Shown: positions 13,769-42,945 of the stretch, piece after piece
Numbering within the stretch: position 1 is the stretch's first letter
Layout of the letters: each line of letters starts with the position of its first letter
NCBI RefSeq assembly: GCF_016908325.1
Contig: NZ_JAFBDR010000019.1
Span: 1 to 64,000, forward strand
Source of the DNA: Aquibacillus albus
GTDB lineage: Bacteria > Bacillota > Bacilli > Bacillales > Amphibacillaceae
DNA length: 64,000 bases
Reading direction: 5' to 3'
Position numbers and translations under genes: made by a program
The notes under the pieces: model-generated
Seen by the model: the letters and a program-made list of their open reading frames with translations, nothing else
What the model was told of the DNA's origin: nothing
Database searches by the model: none

Positions 13769-14788
13769 TTATATTCTTTTCAGCGTAAAGCTCGGAATCA
13801 TTTCACCAATCTTTTCTTTTCTTGCATTACGGACAGGAGCATGATGGTATTCAGATAATTGACTGAACGCATTTTCAGTTCCAATCCCTAACTGATGAAG
13901 CACTTCCATCGAAGCAACATTGGTCGCTCGCTCGTTACCATCTTCTACTTTTAAAGCTATTCCAATGCCGGTATCTTTGTCACCGATACAATGTACACCT
14001 TCTGCACCAACCTTAGCTACAAGCCGCCCATTAAATACCCGCATTAAGTCGGTATCATACCGGTCTGTTCCTGCTACCATCTCTGGATACTTAGTCATTG
14101 CTTCACGAATTTTCTCAAATGATGCTTTTCTTTGCTCACTTCCATTTGCCCAAAGATTCGGCACAGCTAATCTTGTGAAAGCCAAAGCAAGGTTGTATAA
14201 CGGTAAACGATGAACAGGGAGACCACAACCATCAACGGAAGTAGCTATTTTTTCCTTTGCATAGTCGCTAGCGTTGGAAATAACCTCGATAATTTCTAAC
14301 TGATACGGATGATCTGGATCTCTATAATGATCAATATCCAATGCTTTTTTAAGGGACCCTGCAAGCATTCCCGCATGTTTACCGGAACAGTTATGATAAA
14401 CTGGGGTCAGCTCCCCTCCACTTTTTATCAGTTTTTTATAACTATCCTTGTCCCTTGGTATATGAGTACCACACTGAAGTGCACTTTCCTCTAAGTCAAT
14501 TTTCGCTAATACATCCTTTACTCCTTGTCTATGAAAGTCTTCACTGTTATGACTCGCACAAAACAAGGCAAGCTCTTTTTGCGTTAACCCATAAGTCTCG
14601 ATTGCACCAGATTCAACTAATGGTGCCGCCTGAAATGGCTTTAGCGAGGAGCGGCCAAATGTCAGGCGAAATGGATCGCCATAATATCCGATTAATTTAC
14701 CTTCAGCTGATACTACAGCTATATGTACTTGGTGACTACTTTCTATGTATTGTCCTCTATAGACATGAACCTCATGCAGCTTCGTCAA
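13769..14788 (-). CDS. L-asparaginase II family protein (thermolabile type)
   Basis: 339-residue protein of the Asparaginase_II family (Rhizobium etli-type, class 3), which hydrolyses asparagine to aspartate and ammonia in the cytosol. Characteristic segments are GRSSLKPFQA near residue 48, CSGKHAGM with its conserved Cys-Ser-x-Lys near residue 135, and DGCGLPVH near residue 188. This family is unrelated to the AnsA/AnsB fold. No amino-acid carrier or regulator is adjacent. The start codon lies 15 nt after a GGGGAG sequence, slightly long. Some homologues are annotated only by similarity, so activity is inferred. Confidence 0.85.
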   Translation of the reverse strand: MTKLHEVHVYRGQYIESSHQVHIAVVSAEGKLIGYYGDPFRLTFGRSSLKPFQAAPLVESGAIETYGLTQKELALFCASHNSEDFHRQGVKDVLAKIDLEESALQCGTHIPRDKDSYKKLIKSGGELTPVYHNCSGKHAGMLAGSLKKALDIDHYRDPDHPYQLEIIEVISNASDYAKEKIATSVDGCGLPVHRLPLYNLALAFTRLAVPNLWANGSEQRKASFEKIREAMTKYPEMVAGTDRYDTDLMRVFNGRLVAKVGAEGVHCIGDKDTGIGIALKVEDGNERATNVASMEVLHQLGIGTENAFSQLSEYHHAPVRNARKEKIGEMIPSFTLKRI

Positions 14789-18595: not shown

Positions 18596-20041
18596 TTACA
18601 TGACCTGTTGTAAGCGAAAGCAAACCACTTTTTCTTCAGTCATTGCTTCTATCGCTGATCGTACACCTTCTCTTCCTAATCCTGATCCTTTCACTCCACC
18701 AAATGGCATGGCATCAATTCGATAGTCACTCGTGTCATTTACCATCACACCGCCAACATGTAAATTATGAATTGCATAATAGGCCTTATCTATATTTTCT
18801 GTAAAGATTCCGGCTTGCAAACCATAATTCACGTCATTTGAGCTTTCCACTGCCTGATATAGATCATCGACAGCATTAACCACTACAACAGGTCCGAATA
18901 CTTCTTCCTTCGCAATTTTTGCAGTGCTAGGAACCTCGGTTAAAATCGTAGGCGAGAAAAACGCTCCTTCCCGTTTTCCACCAAATTGCAGCGTAGCACC
19001 ATCATATAATGCCTCATTCACCCATGATTCTACTCGAATTGCTTCCTCTTCTGAAATCATTGGACCCATATCCGTAAGTTCATCTAATTTTTCTCCAACC
19101 TTTAATTCCGCTGTTCTTTCTACAAAGGCTTGCATAAAGGCTGCATAACTTTCTTTCTCAACATAAATTCTTTGAACACCAATACAATTTTGACCTACCG
19201 CGGAAAAAGCTCCAGACACACATGCCTTGACAGCATCGTTAATATTCGCATCATTTAATACAATTACTGGAGAGTTAGAACCCAGTTCCATGTTAATTTT
19301 TTTAATACCGGCCTTACTTGCGATCCGCTCACCTGCGTTCGGGCCTCCCGTAAACGAAATCATCCTTACCTTTGGATGGGTAGTTAGTGGCTCACCGATT
19401 TCCCTACCTGAACCAGTCAATACCGAAAGCAGCCCTGCAGGTAGACCAGCTTCCATAAACGCTTCTGCCAATAATAATGCACTTAATGGTGTAACGGATG
19501 CTGGTTTGACAACAATGGCATTCCCAGCAGCAATCGCAGGTCCAACTTTATGTGCAACCAAGTTCAACGGATCGTTAAATGGAGTAATTGCTCCGATAAC
19601 CCCTACTGGAAAACGATAACTATATCCTACCCGATTTTCGCTGCCTTCGCTTTGATCAAAATTTATCGTTTCCCCATTAATTCTTCTTGCCTCTTCCGCA
19701 CTAATTTGAATGGTTTGAATGGCACGCTTCACTTCTCCTCGCGCCTCGTTAATTGTCTTACTACCTTCAAGTGCAATCGTTCTTGCAAATTTCTCGCGGT
19801 ATTCATCCATATAAGCAGCGACTCGGTTCAACACGCGGATTCGTTCATGCGTTGGCCATGGCTGTGTAGAACGGTATGCTTCATCTGCCTTTTCAATTGC
19901 AAATAGCATATCACTGCTTGTTGCGGCTGGAACTCGTGCAATCACTTGACCACTCTCTGGATTACATACATCAAATGTCTTTGCAGCATCAATCCATTGA
20001 CCAGCAAGTAACATTTTTTCATTTTTAACTTGTAGTTGCAT
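18596..20041 (-). CDS. NAD(P)-dependent aldehyde dehydrogenase of the ectoine operon
   Basis: 481-residue ALDH-superfamily enzyme. The catalytic cysteine lies in SAVGQNCIGVQ near residue 285, the general-base glutamate in NMELGSNSP, the NAD(P) Rossmann motif in SFTGGPNAGE, and the conserved EEVFGPV appears near residue 378. It is the last gene of the eutD operon, 14 nt after the homoserine dehydrogenase-like gene, with GGAGGGTGA before the ATG. In known ectoine catabolism DoeC, also an ALDH, oxidises aspartate semialdehyde to aspartate, and that role is inferred here from position. Succinate- or other semialdehydes are possible alternatives. Confidence 0.82.
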   Translation of the reverse strand: MQLQVKNEKMLLAGQWIDAAKTFDVCNPESGQVIARVPAATSSDMLFAIEKADEAYRSTQPWPTHERIRVLNRVAAYMDEYREKFARTIALEGSKTINEARGEVKRAIQTIQISAEEARRINGETINFDQSEGSENRVGYSYRFPVGVIGAITPFNDPLNLVAHKVGPAIAAGNAIVVKPASVTPLSALLLAEAFMEAGLPAGLLSVLTGSGREIGEPLTTHPKVRMISFTGGPNAGERIASKAGIKKINMELGSNSPVIVLNDANINDAVKACVSGAFSAVGQNCIGVQRIYVEKESYAAFMQAFVERTAELKVGEKLDELTDMGPMISEEEAIRVESWVNEALYDGATLQFGGKREGAFFSPTILTEVPSTAKIAKEEVFGPVVVVNAVDDLYQAVESSNDVNYGLQAGIFTENIDKAYYAIHNLHVGGVMVNDTSDYRIDAMPFGGVKGSGLGREGVRSAIEAMTEEKVVCFRLQQVM

Positions 20042-20055
20042 ACTGTCACCCTCCT

Positions 20056-21108
20056 TTAAATTTTCGTTAGGGCGCTTTGTCTTTGAAAGTTAATGATATC
20101 AATGAGTAATGAATATCCAGTTTCGATTAATCCTGCTCCAGCTCCTGTCAACATAATAGGCCCAGATAAGTCACATTCATATAAGATTGCATTTGTCGCT
20201 CCAGAAACTCCAGCTAAAGGATTTTCTGTGTCAATTAACTCTGGTTTTACCGTAGCCGTAACACTTCCATTTTCTTTGGTTATACGAGCCAACAGCTTCC
20301 ATTTCTTATTGTTTTCTTTCGCTTCTTCAATTTTGTCAACTGTCATGTCTGATATTCCCTTACATTCTATATCTTGTGGAGGAATTGGTGTATTCATTAA
20401 ATAACTCGATAGAATCGCCGCCTTATACCTGGCATCATAGCCTTCTACATCACTTGTCGGATCCGCCTCTGCATAGCCAAGCTCCTGCGCTTTTTCCAGC
20501 GCATCTTCGTATGTCTTTCCCTTTTCCATTTCGGTTAAAATATAATTAGTCGTTCCATTCAAAATGCCCTTAATTTCTTTAATGTCATTTCCTGCTAGTG
20601 TTGATATCGGCATTCTTAGGGCAGGTGTTCCACTCATTACCGTTCCTTCAAACCCCCAGAAGACACCGTTCTTTTCTGCTAAACTAGATAGTTCGTGATA
20701 AGCAAGGGCTACTGGTCCTTTGTTGGTAGTCACAACGCTTTTCTTATTTTCAAAAGCTGTACGGATATGATCGATTGCTGGCTGACCTGTTTTAACATCC
20801 GTAAATGTTACTTCTACGATCATATCTGCATTGGAATGCTTGATTGTTTCGAGGCTATCCCAGCCCTTCACTATTCCAGGTTCATCAGGATAGTTTTCAA
20901 CATTACCTGTATCTTCTACAACCTTTAGCAATTGTTCGATGTCTAAGCCACCTGGCTGATACACCGATCCTTTCATAACATCAGACACTGCAACAACTAC
21001 AGGATCTAGCCCATACGAATCTTTCAAACTAACTTTCTGGTCTTTAAAAAGCTTTGCTAACGCCTGACCGACACCACCAAATCCAATGAAAGCAACTTTC
21101 AAACCCAA
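20056..21108 (-). CDS. Homoserine dehydrogenase-family enzyme in the ectoine operon
   Basis: About 350-residue NAD(P)-dependent dehydrogenase with no ACT domain. The Rossmann motif VAFIGFGGVGQAL opens the protein, and the homoserine dehydrogenase signature is visible as GILNGTTNYILTEME and AEADPTSDVEGYDA with the catalytic Asp-Lys region. It would interconvert homoserine and aspartate semialdehyde. A biosynthetic copy would normally sit with thrC/thrB, but here it lies between an M20 deacetylase and an aldehyde dehydrogenase, so a catabolic role is likely. GGAGG is eight nt before the TTG at 21108; a TTG two codons later or one at 21123 are alternatives. Confidence 0.82.
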   Translation of the reverse strand: MGLKVAFIGFGGVGQALAKLFKDQKVSLKDSYGLDPVVVAVSDVMKGSVYQPGGLDIEQLLKVVEDTGNVENYPDEPGIVKGWDSLETIKHSNADMIVEVTFTDVKTGQPAIDHIRTAFENKKSVVTTNKGPVALAYHELSSLAEKNGVFWGFEGTVMSGTPALRMPISTLAGNDIKEIKGILNGTTNYILTEMEKGKTYEDALEKAQELGYAEADPTSDVEGYDARYKAAILSSYLMNTPIPPQDIECKGISDMTVDKIEEAKENNKKWKLLARITKENGSVTATVKPELIDTENPLAGVSGATNAILYECDLSGPIMLTGAGAGLIETGYSLLIDIINFQRQSALTKI

Positions 21109-21125
21109 ATCATTCACCTCCAAGA

Positions 21126-22328
21126 TTATTTCTTACTAGTTAATAGCTTGTGGGTGCATTCTGATAGAAGTGCTACACCGATTGGTAGCGCATCTTCATT
21201 GATTTGAAAATTAGACGTATGCAAGCTTCCTGTTGTATCCCCATTGAATGCACAACCTAAAAAGAACATTGCACCTGGAATCTGCTTTGTTATATGACCA
21301 AAATCTTCCCCACCCATACCAAAGGGCTCTTCATAAATCGGCATATTCGGATAAACAGTTTGTGCCGTTTGTTTAATTAATTCTGTTATTTCTTCATCGT
21401 TATCAAGTGCAGGCTCCCCATGTTCAATTTCAAGCTGATACGCTCCCCCTAATGATTCCGTTATTTTAGCAATCGATTGTAATTCATCGATTAACTGTTG
21501 GCGAACGTCATCTGTATAGGAGCGTAGCGTTCCTTTGATCACTATTTTTTCAGGAATGACATTGGCTGTATGGCCACCATGAATTTCTCCCACACTTATC
21601 GTTCCAACATCGAGTGGATTTATCTTTCTGCTTATAAGACTATAAATTCCTTGAAGTACGTAGGAAGACATCCAGATAGGATCCGTTCCTTGATATGGAT
21701 AACCACCATGTCCTCCTGTCCCTAAGATTTCAAGGGAAAAATTATCAATATTTGCCATACTAGGACCCTTATTTATTTGCAGCTCTCCAGTATTGCGCCA
21801 AGGACAAACATGTAAAGCAATTACTGCATCCAAGTCATTAATCATACCAGAACGAAGTAAATACGGTGCCCCAGTTAATCCGTTCGCATCTGCACTTTCT
21901 TCTGCTGGCTGGAAAATAAATTTAATCGTACCATTTATTCTACCTTCTCTATAATCCTCAGCTAATAGCTTTGCGGCTCCCAATAACATGGTAATATGGG
22001 CATCATGACCACAAGCATGCATAATTCCTTCATGTTCGGATTGATATTCGACCCCTGTTTGTTCTTGTATTGGCAATGCATCCATATCCGCTCGAACACC
22101 GATGACAGGCCCACTTCCCGAGGAGAGGGTGGCAACAATACCATACCCTGCAATTCCTGTCTGAATGTTAAATATATCTTCTGCTTCCAACACGCTTTGG
22201 ATAAAATCACTTGTTTTTTTCTCTTGAAAGCTTAATTCTGGGTAGCGATGCAAGTGGCGACGCCAATCCATTAACTGTGCTTTTATAAACTGAGAACGTT
22301 TCGTTACATCCCAATTTTCAGTTTTCAA
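21126..22328 (-). CDS. M20-family amidohydrolase, candidate N-acetyl-diaminobutyrate deacetylase
   Basis: About 400-residue zinc-dependent amidohydrolase of the M20D (IAA-amino acid hydrolase/hippurate hydrolase) family. Metal-ligand segments GVRADMDALP, HACGHDAH and PAEES are present, and the dimerisation domain lies between about residues 180 and 300. Such enzymes remove acyl groups from amino acids. In its operon with ectoine hydrolase it is the obvious candidate to deacetylate N-acetyl-2,4-diaminobutyrate, the step done elsewhere by the unrelated EutE/DoeB. The start is uncertain: TTG 22328 after AAGGGGGG is preferred; a frame starting within the previous gene is longer, and a GAGGAGGAG site sits near 22370. 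Confidence 0.82.
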   Translation of the reverse strand: MKTENWDVTKRSQFIKAQLMDWRRHLHRYPELSFQEKKTSDFIQSVLEAEDIFNIQTGIAGYGIVATLSSGSGPVIGVRADMDALPIQEQTGVEYQSEHEGIMHACGHDAHITMLLGAAKLLAEDYREGRINGTIKFIFQPAEESADANGLTGAPYLLRSGMINDLDAVIALHVCPWRNTGELQINKGPSMANIDNFSLEILGTGGHGGYPYQGTDPIWMSSYVLQGIYSLISRKINPLDVGTISVGEIHGGHTANVIPEKIVIKGTLRSYTDDVRQQLIDELQSIAKITESLGGAYQLEIEHGEPALDNDEEITELIKQTAQTVYPNMPIYEEPFGMGGEDFGHITKQIPGAMFFLGCAFNGDTTGSLHTSNFQINEDALPIGVALLSECTHKLLTSKK

Positions 22329-22374
22329 GGTAAGCCCGCCCCCCTTCCTTGTATTAATAGAAAAGCTCCTCCTC

Positions 22375-23571
22375 TTAACGTACAAATAAACTTTCTGGAA
22401 GCGCCTGAAACGCTTGATCTAAATCATAAATGAGGTCATCTACATCTTCAATTCCTGCTGAATAACGGATCAACCCTTCTGGTATCCCCATTGCTGCTCT
22501 TTCTTCTGGTGTACATTCAACGTGACTCGTTGTTCGTGATGGGCCTACAACCGTTTCTACTGATCCTAAGTTAGCTGCTTTATTTGCATACTTTAGCTTT
22601 GGTAATAGATGTCTTAGTGTATCTACTCCACCTTTTACCGCAAAGCTCAACATTCCTCCAAAATTATTCATTTGCTTTTTGGCAATGTCATGTCCTGGAT
22701 GATCCTCCAAGCCTGGATAGAATACCGATTCAACAACATCAACCGTTTTTAAATAACGTGCGATAGCCATTGCATTTTCACACTGCTTATCAATACGTAA
22801 CTTCAATGTTTTCATTCCTCTAAGCAATAAATAAGCTGCCATTGGATCTAATGTTGCTCCATTAATTTCACGATAATGATAGATCTGCTCAACTAACTCT
22901 TTCTTACCACAAACAGAACCACCGAGAGCGTCTGCATGACCCCCTAAGAATTTAGTAGCACTGTGAATGACTAAGTCAGCACCAAGTTCTAACGGGTTTT
23001 GATTAATTGGTGTTGCAAAGGTATTATCAACAATGACCATTGCTCCAGCCTTTTTCCCTGCTTTTGCCATTCGCTCGATATCAGTTATTTTTACCGTTGG
23101 ATTCGTCGGACTTTCCAAATAAAGCACCTTGCAGCCTTTTGCGACTTCCTTTTCGATTGCTTCATGATCCCCTGTATCACATAGCACTACATCAATATTT
23201 TGCTTCGGTAAAAATTCTGTAAAAATTTTATTCGTTCCGCCGTACGTGTCTTTTATGGAAACAATTCGGTCGCCTGGAAATAAAAATGTTCCTAGTGTAT
23301 TGCTTATCGCTGCCATCCCTGTCGAAAAGCTAGTAGCTGCTTCTGCATTCTCTAAATCTTTTATCTTTTCTTCAAACGCTTGAACAGTTGGATTCGTGTT
23401 TCGACCATAAATGTGTCCTTCTTTTTTCCCAATGGCAACATCGTACCACTCATCCATATCATCATAGCCGAACGAAACACTATGAACGACAGGAACCTGT
23501 GTAGCTCCAAATGCCAAAGAATCTTTCTCTCCAGCCCATATCGCTCGCGTTGCTATTTTTGATTGTCTCAT
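22375..23571 (-). CDS. Cys/Met-metabolism PLP enzyme (gamma-lyase/gamma-synthase fold)
   Basis: 398-residue PLP-dependent enzyme of the cystathionine gamma-synthase/gamma-lyase and methionine gamma-lyase family. The PLP-binding lysine is in HSATKFLGGH (Lys207), the phosphate-binding YGRNTNPT covers residues 55-62 and the stacking tyrosine is in DTYGGTN (Tyr110). Members eliminate or replace the gamma-substituent of homoserine derivatives. It starts with TAATG, sharing a base with the eutC stop, inside the ectoine operon. Sulfur metabolism genes are absent, so I infer action on a four-carbon product such as diaminobutyrate or homoserine; the reaction is unproven. Confidence 0.85.
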   Translation of the reverse strand: MRQSKIATRAIWAGEKDSLAFGATQVPVVHSVSFGYDDMDEWYDVAIGKKEGHIYGRNTNPTVQAFEEKIKDLENAEAATSFSTGMAAISNTLGTFLFPGDRIVSIKDTYGGTNKIFTEFLPKQNIDVVLCDTGDHEAIEKEVAKGCKVLYLESPTNPTVKITDIERMAKAGKKAGAMVIVDNTFATPINQNPLELGADLVIHSATKFLGGHADALGGSVCGKKELVEQIYHYREINGATLDPMAAYLLLRGMKTLKLRIDKQCENAMAIARYLKTVDVVESVFYPGLEDHPGHDIAKKQMNNFGGMLSFAVKGGVDTLRHLLPKLKYANKAANLGSVETVVGPSRTTSHVECTPEERAAMGIPEGLIRYSAGIEDVDDLIYDLDQAFQALPESLFVR

Positions 23572-24539
23572 TACGTATTCCTCCCTTTACATTTGTTTAT
23601 TAAACGTTCATACGCAAACCTAGCAATCGCAGTATCCTGAATACCCGTTCCAGTCAAATCACACACGGTAATTTGTTCAGGGGTTTCTCTGCCAACTGCA
23701 GCGCCAGAAGTAATTTGACCCAATTCCAACACATTATTGCCTACAAATTTTTCTGATTTACCCTTCAACTCTCCTAAACGAGTCGACTGTTCTTTTTTGT
23801 CACATACTACTAGATCAGCAGCTTCCACTACATGTTCATCTAGCTCCCTTTTATGCTCTGCGTCCGATCCCATGGCTGTAATGTGCAGCCCCGGGTGAAG
23901 CCATTCCGCTCTAATCACAGGATCTGTTGCTGGTGTCGTTGTAATAACTGTATCACTGCTTTGAACAACCTCTTTTGGATGCTCCATCAATTGAACAGGG
24001 ACTTGAAGTTCTTTTTCCATCTCCTGCTTATACTTTTCTGCCTTTTCCTTTGTTCTTCCATATACAAATAGCTTCTCAATTTTCCGTACTAAGGAAACTG
24101 CCTTTACTTGCAAACGTGCTTGTGCACCGGTACCGATCACACCAACATTCGGACTTTTGGTTTTAGCCAAATACTTTGCAGCTACCGCCCCTGCTGCAGC
24201 CGTACGTATATCTGTCAAATAACCATTATCAGCTAACACTGCTTTTGGGACGCCTGTTTTGGAACTAATCAGCAACATTAGGCCGTTTGCAGATGGTAAC
24301 CCTAGCTTATAATTATTGAAAAAGCCGGAAGATATCTTTATCGCAAAGCTATCGTAGCCAGGAACATATGCAGACTTAATATCCACTTCGCCATTATAAT
24401 CTGGTACATCGACTCGCATAATAGGTGGCATCTGAACTTCCTTAACCAATAAATCGGTAAAAGCTTGCTCAATAATATTGATTAATAGATGGTTTAGAGT
24501 AACTACTTCCTCTAATTGCTTCTTGCTGACAACTTCCAC
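23571..24539 (-). CDS. eutC: Hydroxyectoine utilisation protein EutC (ornithine cyclodeaminase fold)
   Basis: 322-residue NAD-binding protein of the ornithine cyclodeaminase/mu-crystallin family. Features typical of EutC are MPPIMRVDVPDYNGEVDIKSAYVPG, here seen as NGEVDIKSAYVPG near residue 51, DNGYLTDIRTAAAG near residue 107, the Rossmann GVIGTGAQARLQ near residue 136 and LHITAMGSDAEHK. With EutB it is thought to convert 5-hydroxyectoine to ectoine. It follows eutD by 12 nt with GGGAGGTG before a GTG start, and overlaps the next gene by one base. Alanine dehydrogenase or ornithine cyclodeaminase are less likely given eutB and eutD. Confidence 0.87.
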   Translation of the reverse strand: MEVVSKKQLEEVVTLNHLLINIIEQAFTDLLVKEVQMPPIMRVDVPDYNGEVDIKSAYVPGYDSFAIKISSGFFNNYKLGLPSANGLMLLISSKTGVPKAVLADNGYLTDIRTAAAGAVAAKYLAKTKSPNVGVIGTGAQARLQVKAVSLVRKIEKLFVYGRTKEKAEKYKQEMEKELQVPVQLMEHPKEVVQSSDTVITTTPATDPVIRAEWLHPGLHITAMGSDAEHKRELDEHVVEAADLVVCDKKEQSTRLGELKGKSEKFVGNNVLELGQITSGAAVGRETPEQITVCDLTGTGIQDTAIARFAYERLINKCKGRNT

Positions 24540-24551
24540 CGGTGCACCTCC

Positions 24552-25760
24552 CTAGCTAATAATTCCGCCATGTTGGTTCCTGTGAAAAGGGTCCTTCACA
24601 ACCAAATCCCTCGGAAAATCTGTAAATGTCTCACACCCGGCATCCGTCACACGAAATGATTCACTAATCTCGATTCCATAATTGTCAAACCAGAGGCCAG
24701 GAATTAAATGAAAAGTCATATTCGGCTGCAAGACGGTTGGATCGCCCATTCGCAGACTCGCTGTATGCTCTCCCCAATCAGGTGGATAGTTGAGACCGAC
24801 AGAATAACCAAGTCTTGCTTCTTTCTCAATTCCATGTTTTTTAATACTATTTCTCCAAATACTTTCAACCTCACCACATGTCATACCTGGCTTTACAGAA
24901 TGTAACACCTCATTTAACCCTTCTACTACAACAGGTGTAATTTTTTCTAGTTCCTTAGATGGCTTTCCAATGGAAACGGTTCGAGCTAACGGAACATGAT
25001 ACCTTTTATAACAACCTGCAAGTTCTACAATTACTGCTTCACCTTCCTGGTATCGTTTATCTGACCATGTTAGGTGCGGTGCCGATGTGTTTTCACCAGA
25101 AGGTAACAATGGGACAATGGCCGGATAATCTCCACCATAATCTTTCGTCCCGCTAACAACTTGATAATAAATATTAGCTGCAACATCGCACTCTCTAACA
25201 CCCGCATATATACTTTCTGTCGCTTTAAACATTGCTTCATCAGCAATTTTAGCTGCCTTTTTCATATATTCAATTTCTTGATCTGATTTTATAATCCGAA
25301 CATAATTTACTAATAAATCCGCATCTTTAAAAGTTGCGTTTGGTAACCCTTGTTTTAAGCGTTCCAATGCCTTTGCAGAGAAGTAATAATTATCCATCTC
25401 CACTCCAATATAGCGATTACCTTGACCAATCTGTTTTAATATTTCTGCTACGAAATCCATTGGATGGTAAACAGATGATTGAACATAATAATCTGGATAC
25501 GCGATAACATTCTCGTCATAAATCCATGTAGTAGCTTTTGCACCGTTTGCATCTTGATAGCGTCCAATCCATATTGGCTGTGGTTCATCAATAATAACGA
25601 TTAACATTTGGTGAACGTAAAACGACCAAGCATCATACCCAGATAAATAATTCATATTTGCAGGGTCCGTGACTAGTAAGACTTCAATGCCACTCTCTGC
25701 CATCCTTTGCTTTGTCTTACTCAGACGGTTTTGATACTCAATAATATCAAATGAAAGCAT
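24552..25760 (-). CDS. eutD: Ectoine hydrolase EutD/DoeA (M24 fold)
   Basis: 402-residue enzyme with a creatinase N-domain and a pita-bread M24 C-domain. It opens the ectoine ring to N-acetyl-2,4-diaminobutyrate. EutD-type segments include DPANMNYLSGYDAWSFYVHQ near residue 32 and AYPDYYVQSSVYHPMD near residue 87. The Asp ligands of metal-dependent M24 peptidases are replaced (VELAG in place of the Asp motif, with Glu246 counting from the chosen start), which agrees with the metal-free ectoine hydrolases that use a glutamate. ATG 25760 follows GGGGGAAGG; a Met nine codons upstream lacks a ribosome site. It leads the six-gene operon. Confidence 0.88.
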   Translation of the reverse strand: MLSFDIIEYQNRLSKTKQRMAESGIEVLLVTDPANMNYLSGYDAWSFYVHQMLIVIIDEPQPIWIGRYQDANGAKATTWIYDENVIAYPDYYVQSSVYHPMDFVAEILKQIGQGNRYIGVEMDNYYFSAKALERLKQGLPNATFKDADLLVNYVRIIKSDQEIEYMKKAAKIADEAMFKATESIYAGVRECDVAANIYYQVVSGTKDYGGDYPAIVPLLPSGENTSAPHLTWSDKRYQEGEAVIVELAGCYKRYHVPLARTVSIGKPSKELEKITPVVVEGLNEVLHSVKPGMTCGEVESIWRNSIKKHGIEKEARLGYSVGLNYPPDWGEHTASLRMGDPTVLQPNMTFHLIPGLWFDNYGIEISESFRVTDAGCETFTDFPRDLVVKDPFHRNQHGGIIS

Positions 25761-26012
25761 GTCGCCTTCCCCCTTCCTGTCTGTCATTGACAGAATTTTT
25801 TAACTATTTGTTAGTTCTATCATATGAAAATTTTCTTTCATTTGTAATGTTCAAACTGTATGAAATTAATCCATCGCCTTTTATACACATTTAACATCAA
25901 ATAAATCCAAAATTGATTATTTTAGTATTTTATAGTTAAATACGGGCAATTTACTCATAAATAATCTAAATTACGCTTATTTATTAGAATTTCGATTAGG
26001 TATTTCATATAG

Positions 26013-26045
26013 ATTATAGTAAAAATTGGAAGTAAACCAATTTTT
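26013..26045 (-). promoter_or_regulatory. Predicted eutD operon promoter with inverted-repeat operator
   Basis: On the minus strand TTGGTT (26040-26035), a 16-bp spacer and TATAAT (26018-26013) form a promoter. A perfect inverted repeat AAAAATTGG-N7-CCAATTTTT (26021-26045) covers the -35 box and spacer. The leader to the eutD start is about 245 nt of AT-rich DNA in which I see no other conserved element. PucR, encoded next door, is the natural candidate to bind here. Confidence 0.5.
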
Positions 26046-26090
26046 TTACTGTTACTATTGCCCTTCCCATTATGACGAAAAGTAAAACAA

Positions 26091-26144
26091 AAATGCCCGA
26101 TAACTAATTCAATAAACAATAGTCAAATTAGTTATCAGGCATTT
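26091..26144 (-). terminator. Terminator after pucR
   Basis: Long hairpin with 19-nt arms at 26091-26109 and 26126-26144 (one mismatch), 10 nt after the pucR stop on the minus strand; it separates the eutB-pucR transcript from the eutD operon. Confidence 0.8.
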
Positions 26145-26153
26145 CAGTAACAA

Positions 26154-27830
26154 TTATTTAATTTTTTTTAACGTCCATAGCCGCACACTCAGTTCTAATA
26201 AAAAGGAATCATCCGAATCTATTAATGATAATTGCGTGAGAGCCTCAATGTTCCTTAAACGATGCAGCAACGACTGTCTATGCAAGTTTAACGCACGAGC
26301 CGTTTGACTGACATTCCCTTTATATTTGTTGTAAGTCATAAACGTATATAATAAGTCCGTTTGTCGCTTTTTATCATAATCTAACAACGGTTGAAGTGTT
26401 TCCTTTACAATCGATGCAATTTCACTTTCTTTGGAAATCGCCATTAGTAAGCGATTTATTTTTGTATTACTAAAAAAGGTTCGTTCCCCTCGATCACCTT
26501 GCTGCACACCTATATCAAGAGCTGTTTTCGCCTCTTGATACGTTTCATAAAAGGCAGTTTCATTATCCTTTGGTGTACTAATTCCCCAAGATAATTCCAT
26601 GCCAGCCAGCAATTCATTTAATCTCCGCGAAATTGTGTCCAGAAAGTGATTGGCAGTCTCCATGTAAGGATGGTGATCTGCTTCTAAAAAAATAATAACT
26701 TGACCCTCATCAAAGGTTGCCATCGTATGACGTCCCAATAACTTTCCAGCATAGGTTATTTCCTTTTGAATATAATAGTTTAAACTTTGTAAGGATGAAT
26801 TTTCTGGACTGTCGTTTTTATCACGAACCAGGTCCTCACGATTACTAACTTCCCCTAGAAGACAAACATATGGATAATTTAAATCATAGCCAAGAAGTTT
26901 CGCCTTTGACAAAAGCTGATCATCAATAGGCGTTTCTTGCTTAGCGAGATTTAATACAAAATTATCCTTTAATCGTATTTCGGTTAGTTCTATCGCATTC
27001 TCTTTAACAAAGTAAAGGGCACAAGCGGTTAAGGCATGCTCTAAAACATTCATTACAAACCAGGATAGCTGCTCTTTACTTTTTGGTTGAACAATTAAAT
27101 AGCCTTGTGTTTTATGATTATTAATAATAGGAAGCTGAAAAATAATTTTGTCATCTAAATCGTAAGCTTCCAAATGATAGTATAACGGGTGCTCCTTAAA
27201 ATGAAGATCAATAGAAGAATTTGGTTGAAGGTTATGTTGGCTATTTTCATCCTGATAAACACGTAACACTTGTTTATTCATGTGTTGATTCGCCCTAATA
27301 AAACCAGATTGATCCACCATTAAAACGGGCATTCGAATGAAACGGTATAACGTATGGGAAATTTGTTGCAAATCCTTGTCTTGTAGCACACAGTCGATGA
27401 GCTTTTGTCTAACCTTTTCCGCCTGCTGCCTTTCTTCCTGCTTATCCAGTGTTATTTTTTCCATTACATGCTGAAGGATATCACCAAATCGAATCTCCCA
27501 AGGAATATCAATGAGGATCAGGTCATTCTTGTTAGCAACTTGTATCACTCGATCAGGGATATCATAAACATATCTACCGGTGGCAACACCTAATATAGAT
27601 GCTCCAGACTGCACAACATCCTCTACGTATTCTTCCAAGAGTTGCGGATCATTTTCGCAACCCATCCCTGTAGTCAAAACAAATTCATTCTTTCTCACAA
27701 AATTTTCTACAGGTAATTCGATAACAGAAATCCATTCAACAAACGTTTCTTTTAACAACTGCTTTCCGGCTTTGACTTTTGAAGTCTCTAAAATCGATAG
27801 TTGAACAATATCTTCTGCTGAAACCCCCAT
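26154..27830 (-). CDS. PucR-family transcriptional regulator of the ectoine cluster
   Basis: About 558-residue regulator. An N-terminal PucR domain (roughly residues 5-125) is followed by a central GGDEF-like/sensor region and a C-terminal PucR-type helix-turn-helix from about residue 495 (YNKYKGNVSQTARALNLHRQ). Bacillus PucR activates purine catabolic genes and is itself nitrogen controlled. Here the gene lies between eutB and eutD, 26 nt after eutB, so it most probably senses an ectoine-derived metabolite and controls both operons. Proteobacterial clusters use the unrelated MocR-type EnuR. Start: ATG 27830, five nt after GAGGTGA; GTG 27839 lies inside that site. Confidence 0.83.
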   Translation of the reverse strand: MGVSAEDIVQLSILETSKVKAGKQLLKETFVEWISVIELPVENFVRKNEFVLTTGMGCENDPQLLEEYVEDVVQSGASILGVATGRYVYDIPDRVIQVANKNDLILIDIPWEIRFGDILQHVMEKITLDKQEERQQAEKVRQKLIDCVLQDKDLQQISHTLYRFIRMPVLMVDQSGFIRANQHMNKQVLRVYQDENSQHNLQPNSSIDLHFKEHPLYYHLEAYDLDDKIIFQLPIINNHKTQGYLIVQPKSKEQLSWFVMNVLEHALTACALYFVKENAIELTEIRLKDNFVLNLAKQETPIDDQLLSKAKLLGYDLNYPYVCLLGEVSNREDLVRDKNDSPENSSLQSLNYYIQKEITYAGKLLGRHTMATFDEGQVIIFLEADHHPYMETANHFLDTISRRLNELLAGMELSWGISTPKDNETAFYETYQEAKTALDIGVQQGDRGERTFFSNTKINRLLMAISKESEIASIVKETLQPLLDYDKKRQTDLLYTFMTYNKYKGNVSQTARALNLHRQSLLHRLRNIEALTQLSLIDSDDSFLLELSVRLWTLKKIK

Positions 27831-27856
27831 AAGCCTCACCTCATTTTGACAGCAAA

Positions 27857-28840
27857 TTAATGGTTTTCCATAACACGACGCACAGTTGCTGAATCTACAT
27901 TACTGCCACTTACAATGAAAACAATTGGTCCTTTACGTACACTTTTTTTCGTTTTCAACAACCAGCCAATACTTGTTGCAGCAGCGCCTTCCACCACCAT
28001 TTTATGATAGTTTATCATAAAAATCATGCCCTTCGCTATCGCTTTCTCTGAAACTAACAAGCTATCATCCATGTATTTTTTTGTCATGGAAAATGTATAC
28101 CTATTATCGAGACCAATCCCGCCAAGTAAACTATCTGCTAAAGTATCGGTTTCTTTCATCGTTATTGGTTTACCTTCTTTTATACTGTGATGCATAACAG
28201 CAGACTGCTCCATTGTCATACCAGTGACCTTGATGCCTGGGTTCATATTCTTCAAAAAAAATCCAATGCCAGATAATAGTCCGCCACCAGATAATGGGAT
28301 AACCACTTGGTTCACGGACGGACAATCCGCCATTATTTCTAAGCCAATGGTTGCTTGACCTGCAATAACCTCCAGATCATCAAACGGTTTAATTGTCGTT
28401 ATACCTTCTTTCTTTTCTAACTCGCCACAATAGGCTGCTGCATCATCTTGACCTTCGCCTACTACTTCTACTCGGGCACCCAGGTCTCTCAATCTATTTA
28501 CTTTTACTTCTGGCACTCTATTTGATATGCATACTGTTGCAGGAATTCCTAACTTTTTTGCTACATAAGCCACAGCAATACCATGATTACCTGTGGAAAA
28601 TGTTGCAACCCCCTTTTTTTGCTGAGACTCCGATAACGAGAGGATTTTATTTGCAGCACCTCTAATTTTAAACGATCCTGTTTCGTGCATGTTTTCTAAT
28701 TTTAAATAAATCGGCGTATTCGTCAATTTTGAAAGAGGATATGAGTAGATAAGTGGTGTTTTTTCAACGATTGGTTCTAATCGCTTTCTTGCTTCCCACA
28801 CATCCTTCACAGTTATTTCCACTTGGTCATTTCGCTCCAT
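27857..28840 (-). CDS. eutB: Hydroxyectoine utilisation dehydratase EutB
   Basis: 327-residue PLP enzyme of the threonine/serine dehydratase fold. The PLP lysine is in GSFKIRGAANK near residue 53, and the glycine-rich phosphate loop is SGGGLLSG near residue 174. EutB-typical segments are TLADSLLGGIGLDNRYTF and MVVEGAAATS. With EutC it removes the hydroxyl of 5-hydroxyectoine in current models. It lies 72 nt after tnrA with no terminator between, and upstream of pucR. Start ATG 28840 follows AAAGGTGAT; a longer frame from 28876 has no ribosome site. Biosynthetic threonine dehydratase is the main alternative, made less likely by the eutC/eutD neighbours. Confidence 0.86.
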   Translation of the reverse strand: MERNDQVEITVKDVWEARKRLEPIVEKTPLIYSYPLSKLTNTPIYLKLENMHETGSFKIRGAANKILSLSESQQKKGVATFSTGNHGIAVAYVAKKLGIPATVCISNRVPEVKVNRLRDLGARVEVVGEGQDDAAAYCGELEKKEGITTIKPFDDLEVIAGQATIGLEIMADCPSVNQVVIPLSGGGLLSGIGFFLKNMNPGIKVTGMTMEQSAVMHHSIKEGKPITMKETDTLADSLLGGIGLDNRYTFSMTKKYMDDSLLVSEKAIAKGMIFMINYHKMVVEGAAATSIGWLLKTKKSVRKGPIVFIVSGSNVDSATVRRVMENH

Positions 28841-28912
28841 CAAAATCACCTTTTTTAGAGAATATTGTGCATCCATATATTTTATACCTACGCAAAGCAG
28901 ACGTTGTTTAGA

Positions 28913-29236
28913 CTATTCTTTTTGAACACCAAATCGGGCATTAATTTCACCACGCAGTAGCTCCTTGCGATACCGCCTTTCTTCTTTCCGTTTCGCCTTT
29001 AACATTTCTTGTCTTATTTCGTAGGTTTGAACCCCTTCTTCACGTTTATTTGCAATATCAATTAACTGTTCCACGTCAGAAAATGAATATTTTCTATTTC
29101 CTTTTGGTGATCTTTCTGGAAAAATTAATTTCCTTTCTTCATAATAGCGTATTTGCCTCTCTGACAAACCTGTTAATTCACTGACTACTCCAATCGTAAT
29201 GACTTTTCTTTCTTTATAAGAAGGATTATCAGCCAA
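28913..29236 (-). CDS. tnrA: MerR-family nitrogen regulator TnrA
   Basis: 107-residue regulator of the GlnR/TnrA branch of the MerR family. The winged helix-turn-helix includes [20 protein letters not shown] (about residues 15-34) and [21 protein letters not shown]. The C-terminal end, ending in [11 protein letters not shown], corresponds to the short tail by which TnrA is held by feedback-inhibited glutamine synthetase. No glnA is adjacent, which favours TnrA over GlnR. The TTG start follows GGTGGTGA. A perfect TnrA box and a suitably placed promoter lie upstream, implying positive autoregulation. It appears to head the transcript tnrA-eutB-pucR. Confidence 0.9.
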
Positions 29237-29327: not shown

Positions 29328-29381
29328 ATTATACATCGAATACGAAAACAACTATATGATTGTGTTAGATTATCTAACACA
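29328..29381 (-). promoter_or_regulatory. tnrA: TnrA box and predicted tnrA promoter
   Basis: The 17-mer TGTTAGATTATCTAACA (29363-29379), inside a 21-bp perfect inverted repeat (29361-29381), fits the GlnR/TnrA consensus TGTNAN7TNACA. On the minus strand TATAAT lies at 29333-29328 with no good -35 box. The box centre would be about 50 bp before the start point, the position at which TnrA is known to activate. A further half-site ATCTAACA lies at 29386-29393. The same box could influence the divergent Fbp-like gene. Confidence 0.85.
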
Positions 29382-29485
29382 TAACATCTAACACAAGTAA
29401 AAAACATTGTAAAAAACGCTCACAGATTACATGCATTCGAATAAAATTTTTCATACAATGAATACATGAGAAAGGAGAGATCCAC

Positions 29486-30280: not shown

Positions 30281-30461
30281 TATTCAAGCACTCTCAAATT
30301 GTTGCGCAGGATAACATTCTTGCATTCATATCAGTGTTACTGCCTCTTTCCTACTTTTTTAGTGCAAATCTGCACTCTATTTTTCTATAGCAGTAACAGC
30401 ACACCCTCCTTTTCTAACGAATAAGCTATATTAAATTCATTCATAGTATGGAGTGGTATTT

Positions 30462-32522
30462 ATGGATTTGCCTTCAATACTGTCTGGACCGATTGTTCGA
30501 AGGACGGAAGCCTCTCACGTACACCTATGGATAGCGACGAGTGAAGACTATTCAATGGATGCAGCATTATACGATGTTGACAATGCTTATCGAATGATAG
30601 ATTCAGAGACGGAAACCGAAACGATAGAATTAGGTAAAAAACTATTTATTCATTTAGTAAAAATCATGCCTGTTCAGGAAGAATTGCCGACCAACCGATT
30701 AATTGGTTACAATCTTTTTTTTAGAAAAGAGTCAACTACTATTGATCTAAATCAACTTGGTTTATTGTCAAAGCAAAACCCACATGCAATCATTTATGGT
30801 GATTTTAAATATCCTACATTTTACATGAATACGAGAAATGCAAACAACGTTCTTTATGGTTCTTGCCGTAAACCACAAAGTTACGGAGATGATGCACTTG
30901 TTGGTGCAGATTTAATTATCGAAGAGAGTCAGGATGATATTTGTAATCGACCAAGCTCACTTTTTCTCATGGGTAACCAAATTTACGCTGATGATATACC
31001 TGTTCCACTGCGTACCTTTATTATGGAGTTAGGAAAAGAGTTAATAGGTAAGGATGAAAAACTTGAGAGATTAGATACTCGACTAAAAATGAACTCCAAA
31101 TTATCATTTTTAAATGAATTATCCGGAAGACAATATATGATCAAACAACTCGCTCAGTTTACACCAAATCATGGAGCCAACCATCTTATTACCCTCGGTG
31201 AATATGCAGCCATGTATTTACTATCGTTTGGACCTCAGCTTTGGGATTTAGCGGAGAGTTACGGTGTTTTTGATACTTTTAATACGGATATGCAAGACGA
31301 TTATTTTGTTGCAATTCCAGACCAGCCAAATAAAAAAGCGCTCGAAAAGGAGCTTAACCAAAATCGAATGGAATATATAGAACAAGCGACGAACATTTAT
31401 CAATTTCAACAAGATTTATATCGAATCCGTCGTCTCCTTGCTAATACCCCTACCTATATGATTTTTGACGACCATGATATTACAGGTGATTGGAACTTAA
31501 CAAGCGAATGGAAAACAGCCGTCCGAAATGCCCCACTCGGTAAACACATAGTAGCTAATGGATTAGCAGCTTATTGGGCTTTTCAAGGCTGGGGAAATAA
31601 CCCAAATGCATTCGATACGTTGTTTAAAGCAACGATGCAAAATTATATGCAAGCTTTTTCAATCGAGTCAGACTCCTATCAAGATTGGGTCGACATGTTA
31701 TGGAATTTTAATGATTGGCAATTTGTTGCACCAACCTACCCAAAAGCTATCTTTCTTGATACACGTACAATGAGATCAAACGCCATCAATGTAAGCGCTA
31801 CCAAAGAAGAGGAAGTTCAACGTTCTCAGTTAAAGAACACAGAAGGATGGAAAAAAGCTTCTGCATTACTAAAAAACAGTGGCTGGAAACACCAAAGTCC
31901 ATTAATTGTTGTTTCTCCAAGACCACTTTACGGTAATGACTTGATTGAAGCTACCTTATACAATTTTTTTAATCCATTACGCTTTCTCGGAATCAAAAGG
32001 CAGCGTATGCTTGATTTAAAAGCTCGGAAATATAATAGAGATGAGTTTCATACATTCTACCGATGGTTAGCAGAGTGTAATCCAAGTCATTGCTTTATTT
32101 TGTCAGGGGATAGTCATTATGCAGCAGCTCTTAAATCTACAGTTGAATATAATGAAGGAAAGAATTTAAAGCTATATCAATTTACAAGCAGTCGATTAAC
32201 TGATATCTGTTCCGTCACTTCAGATTCCTTCTTAACTAAAGCAGTTCATTTCATTAAAAATAGAATGCAGAAACGAATTTTCCGTTATTGTGATAATCAA
32301 AACAACCTAGTGATAGAGGACAAAGGTGCGCCGTGCCCTCCAACGTATAGGTGGCGAGAAACGATTCGATATCTGTCTACAGAAAATGGGAAGATGATAG
32401 ATACAGAAAATAATGTAGGAATGCTAATACTAGATTCTCAATCCGTTCAGAACGTTTTGGTCAAGTATTATGGACTTCATAAGCAAATGATACCCTATGA
32501 AAAATTGAATTTAATCGACTAA
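30462..32522 (+). CDS. PhoD-like phosphatase (metallophosphoesterase)
   Basis: About 686-residue protein of the PhoD alkaline-phosphatase family. Metal-site segments are visible: YGSCRKP near residue 130, the central FDDHDITGDWN and the late GDSHYAA. Unlike the secreted PhoD of Bacillus it has no signal peptide and no Tat motif, so it is probably cytosolic. N-terminal residues 1-100 form a small beta domain. ATG 30462 lies eight nt after GGAG. It stands alone, converging on an ABC exporter gene. Phosphodiesterase versus monoesterase activity is not predictable. Confidence 0.78.
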   Translation: MDLPSILSGPIVRRTEASHVHLWIATSEDYSMDAALYDVDNAYRMIDSETETETIELGKKLFIHLVKIMPVQEELPTNRLIGYNLFFRKESTTIDLNQLGLLSKQNPHAIIYGDFKYPTFYMNTRNANNVLYGSCRKPQSYGDDALVGADLIIEESQDDICNRPSSLFLMGNQIYADDIPVPLRTFIMELGKELIGKDEKLERLDTRLKMNSKLSFLNELSGRQYMIKQLAQFTPNHGANHLITLGEYAAMYLLSFGPQLWDLAESYGVFDTFNTDMQDDYFVAIPDQPNKKALEKELNQNRMEYIEQATNIYQFQQDLYRIRRLLANTPTYMIFDDHDITGDWNLTSEWKTAVRNAPLGKHIVANGLAAYWAFQGWGNNPNAFDTLFKATMQNYMQAFSIESDSYQDWVDMLWNFNDWQFVAPTYPKAIFLDTRTMRSNAINVSATKEEEVQRSQLKNTEGWKKASALLKNSGWKHQSPLIVVSPRPLYGNDLIEATLYNFFNPLRFLGIKRQRMLDLKARKYNRDEFHTFYRWLAECNPSHCFILSGDSHYAAALKSTVEYNEGKNLKLYQFTSSRLTDICSVTSDSFLTKAVHFIKNRMQKRIFRYCDNQNNLVIEDKGAPCPPTYRWRETIRYLSTENGKMIDTENNVGMLILDSQSVQNVLVKYYGLHKQMIPYEKLNLID

Positions 32523-42847: not shown

Positions 42848-42945
42848 TTTCGGTAACTGGCTGGCATAGTGTTCCATACACTGAAGCCCCTATAGCTTTG
42901 CGTCACTGGCTTTCACCAGCTTTGCCTTTATCGAGAATCAGTTAT
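42848..42945 (-). ncRNA. c-di-GMP-I (GEMM) riboswitch aptamer
   Basis: Read on the minus strand the element has the GEMM-I landmarks in order: AAAGGCAAAGC, a CTGG-TGAAAG-CCAG stem with a GNRA-type loop, GTGACGCAAAGCTATAGGG, a second hairpin with TGGAACACTA, and the closing CAGCCAGTTACCG. Flanking TAACTG/CAGTTA can pair. It binds cyclic di-GMP and here precedes a terminator and the Flp/Tad pilus genes, so it should tie pilus expression to c-di-GMP. Its own promoter must lie in the AT-rich 42946-43319 stretch, where I see no other conserved element. Confidence 0.9.

Follow-up and report, generated by a model that had tools for sequence, protein, structure and literature searches.

Organization of the Gene Cluster

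The DNA analyzed here comprises positions 1 to 64,000 of contig NZ_JAFBDR010000019.1 of Aquibacillus albus (NCBI RefSeq assembly GCF_016908325.1), and this whole stretch of 64,000 nucleotides is referred to as the window. It contains a putative (hydroxy)ectoine catabolic cluster of 10.3 kb that lies exclusively on the minus strand (28876–18596), and in which eutB, pucR, eutD, eutC and the genes for a Cys/Met-metabolism enzyme (CysMet), an M20 amidohydrolase (M20), a homoserine dehydrogenase (HSD) and an aldehyde dehydrogenase (ALDH) are present, in this order, as long open reading frames (ORFs). The original prediction, made from the sequence alone, placed homologs of eutB, eutC and eutD at this position, in two same-strand operons with a PucR regulator. 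The long same-strand ORFs and the family profiles confirm the three homologs, and the pattern of intergenic gaps agrees with the two operons.

The gene eutB (27857–28876), recognized with NCBIfam profiles, encodes a pyridoxal phosphate (PLP) enzyme with the threonine-dehydratase fold, and is followed after 17 bases by the gene for the PucR-family regulator (26154–27839; PF07905, 110.2 bits; PF13556, 51 bits). The two putative operons are separated by a pucR-eutD intergenic region of 366 bases (25788–26153), in which direct reading of the sequence reveals an inverted repeat and then a T-rich stretch after pucR, and which presumably contains the promoter of the eutD operon. The eutD gene (doeA; 24552–25787) encodes a predicted ectoine hydrolase of the M24/creatinase fold. 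An internal ATG at 25760 is preceded by a strong ribosome-binding site and is likely to be the start of eutD, rather than 25787. The gene eutC (23571–24539), assigned with NCBIfam profiles, encodes a reductase of the ornithine-cyclodeaminase/mu-crystallin fold, the partner of EutB, and begins 12 bases after eutD. It overlaps by one base with the gene for CysMet (22375–23571), a PLP enzyme of the gamma family, which in turn overlaps the M20 gene (21126–22385) by 11 bases. The genes for a short HSD of 355 residues (20056–21123) and ALDH (18596–20041) follow after gaps of 2 and 14 bases, respectively.

Identity of EutB, EutC, and EutD

For comparison, a scan for related loci gave 78 loci, which are the best 78 of 589 candidates and thus biased to near relatives, with some genomes represented twice (e.g., L061 and L068); the window makes 79. 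Gene occurrence was counted in 397 genomes, drawn evenly from the order to which the window belongs.

EutB scored above the cut-off of NF005680 (EutB; 420.3 bits, cut-off 413) and below that of TIGR02991 (354.2 bits, cut-off 413.35). Similarly, EutC passed NF006141 (the PRK08291 model, named “cyclodeaminase”; 460 bits, cut-off 408) and scored 402.9 bits with TIGR02992 (“EutC,” cut-off 471.65). EutD reached 505.6 bits with TIGR02993 (cut-off 613) and 254.2 bits with a second ectoine-hydrolase model, NF038259 (cut-off 575), and its best non-ectoine NCBIfam model was PepQ with 131.9 bits. As none of the 397 genomes reaches the TIGR02993 cut-off, this threshold excludes the whole branch. The best match of EutD in the PDB was DoeA of Halomonas elongata (E-value 1.8e-121, 409 bits), and the best match to an Xaa-Pro dipeptidase had an E-value of 1.4e-37 (133 bits). 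Better matches of the three proteins to threonine dehydratase, ornithine cyclodeaminase or Xaa-Pro peptidase were not seen in these profile searches, though several curated cut-offs were missed. EutB is encoded in 32 of the 79 loci, all of which also carry EutC, and is predicted to dehydrate a hydroxyectoine-derived substrate.

The absence of eutE, doeD, an importer and EnuR, also part of the original prediction, holds for the nine cluster proteins (TnrA to ALDH) and six neighboring ORFs, among which profiles detected no DoeB, class-III aminotransferase, or importer of the BCCT, TRAP or Ehu type; the search for EnuR, EutA, EutE and importers did not extend to the remainder of the genome. The six neighboring ORFs were assigned to asparaginase II, ZIP-like, MATE and ABC_membrane/ABC_tran proteins, and two had no family. 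In the cluster itself no MocR regulator of the EnuR/EhuR type is found and PucR is present instead. A single DoeB query gave no match in the 78 loci, the set to which this search was confined. A DoeD-type class-III aminotransferase lies in the cluster of one of the 78 loci, and that locus lacks CysMet and HSD.

The CysMet, M20, HSD, and ALDH Proteins

CysMet belongs to the PRK08249 subgroup (NF006097; 745.9 bits, cut-off 600) and matched PF01053 (Cys_Met_Meta_PP) with 436.9 bits, compared to 34.9 bits for Aminotran_1_2. The invariant alignment positions include those that we take to be the PLP lysine, the ring aspartate, the carboxylate arginine and the tyrosine by the gamma position. One position between two phosphate-binding residues differs, being Gly in 78 of 78 EutD-linked and Asn in 8 of 8 unlinked members. 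Identification as a methionine gamma-lyase was rejected on the basis of both the profile (TIGR01328, 400.5 bits, cut-off 549.7) and the position that presumably corresponds to the active-site Cys of that enzyme, which is Gly in all 78 EutD-linked members. A role in normal methionine synthesis was likewise rejected; among eight EutD-free copies viewed, only that of L103, in a homocysteine methyltransferase context, touches methionine. The aminotransferase designation (“atf” of PMC13188858) was also discarded, as the best family is PF01053 and not an aminotransferase.

M20 scored 359.9 bits with TIGR01891 (cut-off 153.75) and 228.8 bits with the DoeB2 model NF038260 (below its cut-off of 550). 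It is predicted to be the deacetylase of N-acetyl-L-2,4-diaminobutanoate (N-acetyl-DABA) that replaces EutE/DoeB. HSD passed NF004912 (432.4 bits, cut-off 373); it shares 45% identity with an HSD of the Rhizobium plasmid pRL8 and 30–33% with two longer HSDs of its own genome, and is predicted to run oxidatively, from homoserine to aspartate semialdehyde. ALDH (PF00171, 533.7 bits) is 47% identical to the ALDH beside HSD on pRL8 and 38% identical to a Rhizobium ALDH in the DoeC position, and is a predicted aspartate-semialdehyde dehydrogenase.

Conservation and Linkage of the Cluster Genes

Together with eutD, CysMet, HSD and ALDH are all present in 70 of the 79 loci. Eight loci carry CysMet without HSD and ALDH, and one (L067, Niallia endozanthoxylica) carries ALDH without CysMet or HSD; an ORF of the PucR cluster is present in 65. 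CysMet is the most conserved protein, with a median identity of 81.6% (77 loci), compared to 68.6% for EutD (78 loci).

EutD and CysMet each occur in 119 of the 397 genomes and together in 113, in all of which the two genes start no more than 5.5 kb apart. HSD is encoded in 95 genomes, of which 94 also have CysMet, always within 2.7 kb, and it is absent from five of the six genomes that have EutD and no CysMet. Fisher tests for the co-occurrence of EutD, CysMet and HSD gave tiny p-values, which were computed ignoring relatedness.

The complete set is also found on a plasmid of Priestia megaterium ATCC 14581 (L083), which carries all eight genes along with one for a ProP-like protein. An extra pdxS gene for PLP synthase (L083:8794-9678) lies between eutB and eutD on this plasmid and fits a PLP-heavy pathway. 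Two haloarchaeal EutD loci (L084, L085) showed no CysMet match in the stretches viewed.

An Aminotransferase in Place of CysMet and HSD

Three loci (L067, L088, and L090) have kept EutD, M20 and ALDH, lack CysMet and HSD, and contain a class-III aminotransferase gene adjoining that for ALDH. Their ALDH proteins are 65, 62, and 64% identical, respectively, to the window ALDH. If ALDH acts on aspartate semialdehyde in both versions of the cluster, its retention argues that CysMet and HSD together turn L-2,4-diaminobutanoate (DABA) into aspartate semialdehyde; and because HSD makes aspartate semialdehyde from homoserine, CysMet should make homoserine. Apart from L067 itself, none of the 78 loci showed such a gene in its cluster in a tblastn search with the L067 aminotransferase; L006 and L007 have a homolog of 26% identity, which lies on the opposite strand approximately 1.5 kb upstream. 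L067, L088, and L090 group in a single clade of the EutD tree (support 99/96), beside the 17-row CysMet-type clade that includes the window. In two further genomes (G292 and G373), EutD is retained and the genes nearby include a class-III aminotransferase of another kind and a semialdehyde dehydrogenase; the aminotransferase of G373 passes the GABA-transaminase model (750.4 bits, cut-off 676).

CysMet on Enterobacterial Plasmids

A Klebsiella plasmid (L082) carries ehuABCD, a MocR gene of the EhuR type (568.5 bits, cut-off 480), doeA, doeB and then a gene for CysMet (65% identity), with eutB and eutC divergently oriented. As CysMet directly follows doeA-doeB here, it is expected to act after the DABA-forming step. 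In Halomonas the DABA-forming pair is followed by a transaminase and a dehydrogenase (PMC3187862), and both are missing from the Klebsiella stretch viewed: the 25 kb inspected in a single plasmid record showed neither doeD nor doeC, and tblastn with the L067-type aminotransferase, DoeC, HSD and ALDH as queries gave no match in it.

A megablast search with the stretch containing the regulator, doeA, doeB and CysMet matched 36 plasmid records, 28 of them at a coverage of at least 80% (Klebsiella and one Pluralibacter), and E. coli genomes gave no match to the Klebsiella doeA-doeB-CysMet DNA. These Klebsiella/Pluralibacter plasmids thus carry a cluster of mixed type for ectoine uptake and breakdown, with EhuABCD, EhuR, DoeA, DoeB, CysMet, EutB and EutC (L082:3912-15406).

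CysMet and HSD-ALDH Apart From EutD

CysMet occurs without EutD in 6 of the 397 genomes. Three of these six have CysMet, HSD and ALDH followed by a permease, so CysMet and HSD also travel together independently of ectoine. The best model for the permease of L096 is S-methylmethionine permease (665.0 bits, below its cut-off of 716), and the permeases of L099 and L100 fall in the same BLAST cluster. In genome G384, a second CysMet is accompanied by a permease of this type and by a homocysteine S-methyltransferase (457.9 bits, cut-off 215). The eight EutD-free copies viewed consist of three with HSD-ALDH and a permease, one with a permease and homocysteine methyltransferase (L103), and four by an operon resembling those for 2-oxo-acid dehydrogenases. 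A tree of CysMet places the EutD-free copies in a single clade, which is nested among the EutD-linked ones. The first four (L096:8742-14073, L099:8929-14254, L100:8820-14206, and L103:6036-9732) represent a candidate S-methylmethionine gamma-lyase operon, which would convert S-methylmethionine to dimethyl sulfide and homoserine. At the other four (L097, L098, L101, and L102), CysMet has as neighbors a large gene resembling a regulator and an apparent 2-oxo-acid dehydrogenase operon of the acetoin/pyruvate type, and HSD and ALDH are absent; the E1-alpha gene of L097, the sole one profiled of the four, scored 363.9 bits (cut-off 393.85).

HSD-ALDH pairs were also seen on three Rhizobium plasmids (pRL8 and two others), with identities to the window proteins of 45–47% for HSD and 47–48% for ALDH. 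As in the window, HSD is directly followed by ALDH; in contrast to the window, EutD had no match in the plasmid stretches viewed, and a Cys/Met-family gene (35–38% identity) lies within 7 kb on two of the three plasmids, none being found on pRL8. RLV_0467, the ortholog of pRL80071, belongs to an HSD family that strongly prefers homoserine oxidation and is located near a homoserine-catabolism cluster (PMC10228743); we infer that the sole HSD match on pRL8 is pRL80071. On the other two plasmids (L182:7986-15995 and L183:6260-10462) the Cys/Met-family gene is annotated as aminotransferase class I/II-fold and is accompanied by aspartate ammonia-lyase; these are candidate homoserine-forming loci, possibly for canavanine or a like amino acid.

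Proposed Route and Alternative Explanations

The route outlined here combines the observed gene content, linkage, two swaps and enzyme families with a substrate inferred for each enzyme. As judged by their families, EutD would open ectoine to N-acetyl-DABA and M20 would deacetylate this to DABA. CysMet would then convert DABA to homoserine and ammonia, a predicted new reaction, in which an external aldimine is formed, the protonated gamma-amino group is lost by gamma-elimination, water is added and homoserine is released. The dedicated HSD would oxidize homoserine to aspartate semialdehyde, and ALDH would oxidize the latter to aspartate. In this manner CysMet and HSD would do the job of the transaminase DoeD, with the release of free ammonia and the reduction of one additional nicotinamide cofactor, and EutB and EutC would form a separate hydroxyectoine module, performing a dehydration and then a reduction. 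A precedent for the CysMet reaction is canavanine-gamma-lyase, which gives homoserine and hydroxyguanidine (PMC10018355).

As to the cluster as a whole, the original prediction of a Gram-positive form of ectoine breakdown whose gene set departs from the standard one finds support in the profiles and in a neighborhood that is kept in the 78 Bacillota loci and in the 397 genomes, and the sequence data favor a (hydroxy)ectoine catabolic cluster with a rebuilt middle step. That degradation proceeds via DABA, homoserine, aspartate semialdehyde and aspartate appears to us reasonably probable from the sequence comparisons. We lean slightly toward the broader proposal that the PRK08249 family represents an undescribed activity converting L-2,4-diaminobutanoate to L-homoserine and ammonia. 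This would provide a transaminase-free ectoine route in 113 of the 397 genomes, more than one in four of the species sampled from the order, and on enterobacterial plasmids, and EutD-free relatives would use CysMet, HSD and ALDH on another gamma-substituted amino acid, perhaps S-methylmethionine.

Several points weigh against the route through homoserine. The gamma-ammonium is a poor leaving group, and we know of no PLP enzyme that cleaves DABA by gamma-elimination, nor of an activity for any CysMet member. The active-site residues of CysMet hardly differ between EutD-linked members and unlinked ones, so that its substrate is not shown by sequence alone, and EutD is below the curated cut-off, as in all 397 genomes. 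HSD is lacking in 22 of the 113 genomes with EutD and CysMet, and both HSD and ALDH are lacking in 8 of the 79 loci, so the CysMet product must be used otherwise there; 16 of the 79 loci have no M20 ORF. Genome G341 has HSD and ALDH beside EutD and no close CysMet (36–38% identity at best), and G320 lacks CysMet and HSD, and an aminotransferase was not seen in its two EutD loci. Aminotransferases 51–52% identical to that of L067 are encoded elsewhere in the genomes of both (51% in G320). As their EutD proteins form a single clade, the three aminotransferase loci of the Bacillota probably reflect one replacement event. Finally, doeB has been reported in strain 3ASR75-11 (PMC10203224), whose cluster (L008) has the full CysMet set.

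Foremost among the alternatives, though unlikely in our estimation, is that CysMet is a plain gamma-lyase that converts DABA to 2-oxobutanoate and two molecules of ammonia, which would feed isoleucine or propionyl-CoA metabolism, with HSD and ALDH as a side branch. Known Cys/Met gamma-lyases generally release 2-oxobutanoate, the four unlinked CysMet genes near an apparent 2-oxo-acid dehydrogenase operon (L097, L098, L101, and L102) would suit such a product, and neither HSD nor ALDH is present in the eight loci mentioned above or in the Klebsiella plasmid stretch viewed. Such a reaction would leave HSD without a role, yet HSD is missing from five of the six genomes with EutD and no CysMet, and follows CysMet where EutD is absent.

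We regard it as improbable that CysMet acts directly on N-gamma-acetyl-DABA, giving acetamide and homoserine with no need of a deacetylase, and that M20 handles the N-alpha isomer. DoeA of H. elongata makes both isomers, in an alpha:gamma ratio of 2:1 (PMC5924519), and the 16 loci that have no M20 ORF keep CysMet. Among these M20-less loci, L058 holds pieces of M20, and an extra locus, L019, has only a distant M20 outside the operon (tblastn). M20 paralogs, with a best identity of 35–39% in each genome, are present in 11 of 11 searched M20-less genomes and might serve instead; moreover, the CysMet of the Klebsiella plasmid follows doeB, whose substrate is the N-alpha isomer, and N-alpha-acetyl-DABA is the major DoeA product in a methanotroph (PMC7192451).

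Equally doubtful, in our view, is the standard route, with a transamination of DABA that yields aspartate semialdehyde, whether CysMet catalyzes it or an aminotransferase encoded outside the cluster (EctB, for example), and with HSD only reducing surplus semialdehyde to homoserine. It would suit the label atf given to the third gene in PMC13188858, the class-III aminotransferases encoded in the window's genome, one of them beside ectC, and the finding that deletion of doeD in H. elongata merely slowed growth on ectoine threefold (PMC3187862). The profile scores of CysMet given above speak against aminotransferase function, and a reductive HSD should persist beside a real aminotransferase, yet it is gone in all three loci with the replacement. 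Least likely is that the substrate is another cyclic amidine or an N-acylated diamino acid and the likeness to EutBCD is at the family level only: although the cut-offs of TIGR02991, TIGR02992, TIGR02993, NF038259, and NF038260 were missed, with only NF005680 and NF006141 passed, and the EutD family includes peptidases, DoeA is the nearest solved relative of EutD by approximately 84 orders of magnitude in E-value, 97 of the 119 EutD genomes also have ectoine synthase, and EhuABCD and EhuR sit with the Klebsiella CysMet.

Regulation and the Source of the Ectoine

PucR is likely to activate the eutD operon as a local regulator; a PucR operator was not identified in the region upstream of eutD. 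The neighbor of eutB, tnrA (28913–29236, minus strand), encodes the global nitrogen regulator TnrA (NF053740, TransRegTnrAGPos; 170.4 bits, cut-off 140) and, at a distance of 36 bases, is possibly co-transcribed with eutB. In several relatives it is pucR that directly follows tnrA.

Using a TnrA-box consensus, we found four TnrA-box-like sites in the window, compared to 1.69 expected (6 of 100 shuffles had at least four), two of which (29363–29379 and 29408–29424) are upstream of tnrA-eutB-pucR. All seven scanned clusters with an adjacent tnrA have such a site within 190 bases upstream of this gene. Within 350 bases upstream of the ORFs of the 79 loci, TnrA boxes were found for 0 of 91 EutD, 0 of 61 PucR, and 0 of 30 EutB ORFs, so that nitrogen control of eutD itself is unsupported. 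The Priestia plasmid, which is outside the 79 loci, has a TnrA box approximately 175 bases before eutD. The neighboring tnrA suggests a link with nitrogen limitation.

The genome of A. albus encodes the ectoine synthase EctC, with a class-III aminotransferase beside it, and the ectoine hydroxylase EctD (383 bits, cut-off 336.5). Given these biosynthetic genes, and with no importer detected next to the cluster, the cluster probably serves mainly to recycle the cell's own solute. Across the order, ectoine synthase and EutD occur together in 97 genomes, EutD only in 22, EctC only in 20, and neither in 258. In the near relatives of the window, Aquibacillus loci L001–L005, no eutC is present between eutD and CysMet; among the strains of PMC10203224, ectD is found only in A. 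albus and A. halophilus, and for these reasons eutBC may go with the making of hydroxyectoine in Aquibacillus.

Transport genes were compared between all 22 EutD genomes without ectC (non-producers) and 40 producers, namely L090 and 39 of the 97 ectC genomes, taken in listing order and leaving out the window and the CysMet-less G292 and G373. A protein with at least eight membrane segments is encoded within 2 kb of the cluster in 11 of 22 non-producers and 19 of 40 producers, i.e., there is no difference. In a post hoc comparison, BCCT or ProP-like MFS (major facilitator superfamily) genes were found in 11 of 22 non-producers and 3 of 40 producers, and EutB/EutC in 17 of 22 and 5 of 40, respectively.

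Other Features of the Window

Approximately 3.8 kb downstream of the cluster, on the same strand, lies a gene for L-asparaginase II (13769–14788; PF06089, 403.2 bits). Upstream of the cluster, an ORF of 689 residues on the plus strand (30453–32522) had no Pfam match at an E-value of 1e-5 and is kept in 4 of the 79 loci. A c-di-GMP-I riboswitch aptamer was detected on the minus strand at 42849–42936 (79.3 bits, gathering threshold 35).

Relation to Known Systems and Implications

The cluster shares with the DoeABCD/EutABCDE systems of Halomonas elongata, Ruegeria pomeroyi, and Sinorhizobium meliloti the EutD protein, the EutB and EutC proteins for hydroxyectoine, and a predicted end in aspartate via aspartate semialdehyde. 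In contrast to these systems, it shows no EutE/DoeB, DoeD, EutA, AsnC/DoeX or EnuR, and has CysMet and HSD for DoeD, M20 for DoeB and PucR as the regulator. The doeBDAC clusters of halotolerant methylotrophs (PMC7192451) are similar in that an ectoine producer degrades ectoine, in the lack of a transporter or EnuR in the clusters and in a divergent DoeB (22% identity to that of H. elongata), and differ in the use of the DoeD transaminase. Like the predicted CysMet, canavanine-gamma-lyase (Hauth et al., 2022, via PMC10018355) is a PLP gamma-lyase that forms homoserine from a gamma-substituted amino acid; the likeness concerns the reaction, and its leaving group, hydroxyguanidine, is different.

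The window belongs to a cluster type published in April 2026 (Applied and Environmental Microbiology, AEM; PMC13188858): the putative Bacillales clusters pucR-eutBCD-atf and abgB-thrA-adh described by Boas Lichty et al. (2026) match it in gene content and almost entirely in gene order, and, equated by position, atf should be CysMet. That report calls the Gram-positive clusters tentative until tested and gives thrA no role other than the reduction of aspartate semialdehyde to homoserine; in the parts of it covered here, no route through homoserine is seen. The gene list has thus largely been in print since April 2026, and what is added here is the biochemical reading via homoserine. We found no description of a DABA-homoserine route in the open-licence literature, as judged mainly from titles and the openings of abstracts.

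If true, this reading would supply ectoine catabolism with a missing enzyme and with a branch that needs no transaminase, give the thrA-type gene of the 2026 report a role in the pathway and correct the label atf. It would also provide a function for a widespread family of Cys/Met PLP enzymes that is annotated merely as “cystathionine gamma-synthase family protein.” PMC10203224 quotes the view that producers usually do not catabolize ectoine, takes ectoine as mainly an osmolyte in its own isolates, and remarks that organisms that both produce and consume it are perhaps less rare than thought. The presence of ectoine synthase in 97 of the 119 genomes with EutD would point to a recycling of self-made ectoine in many Gram-positive halophiles.

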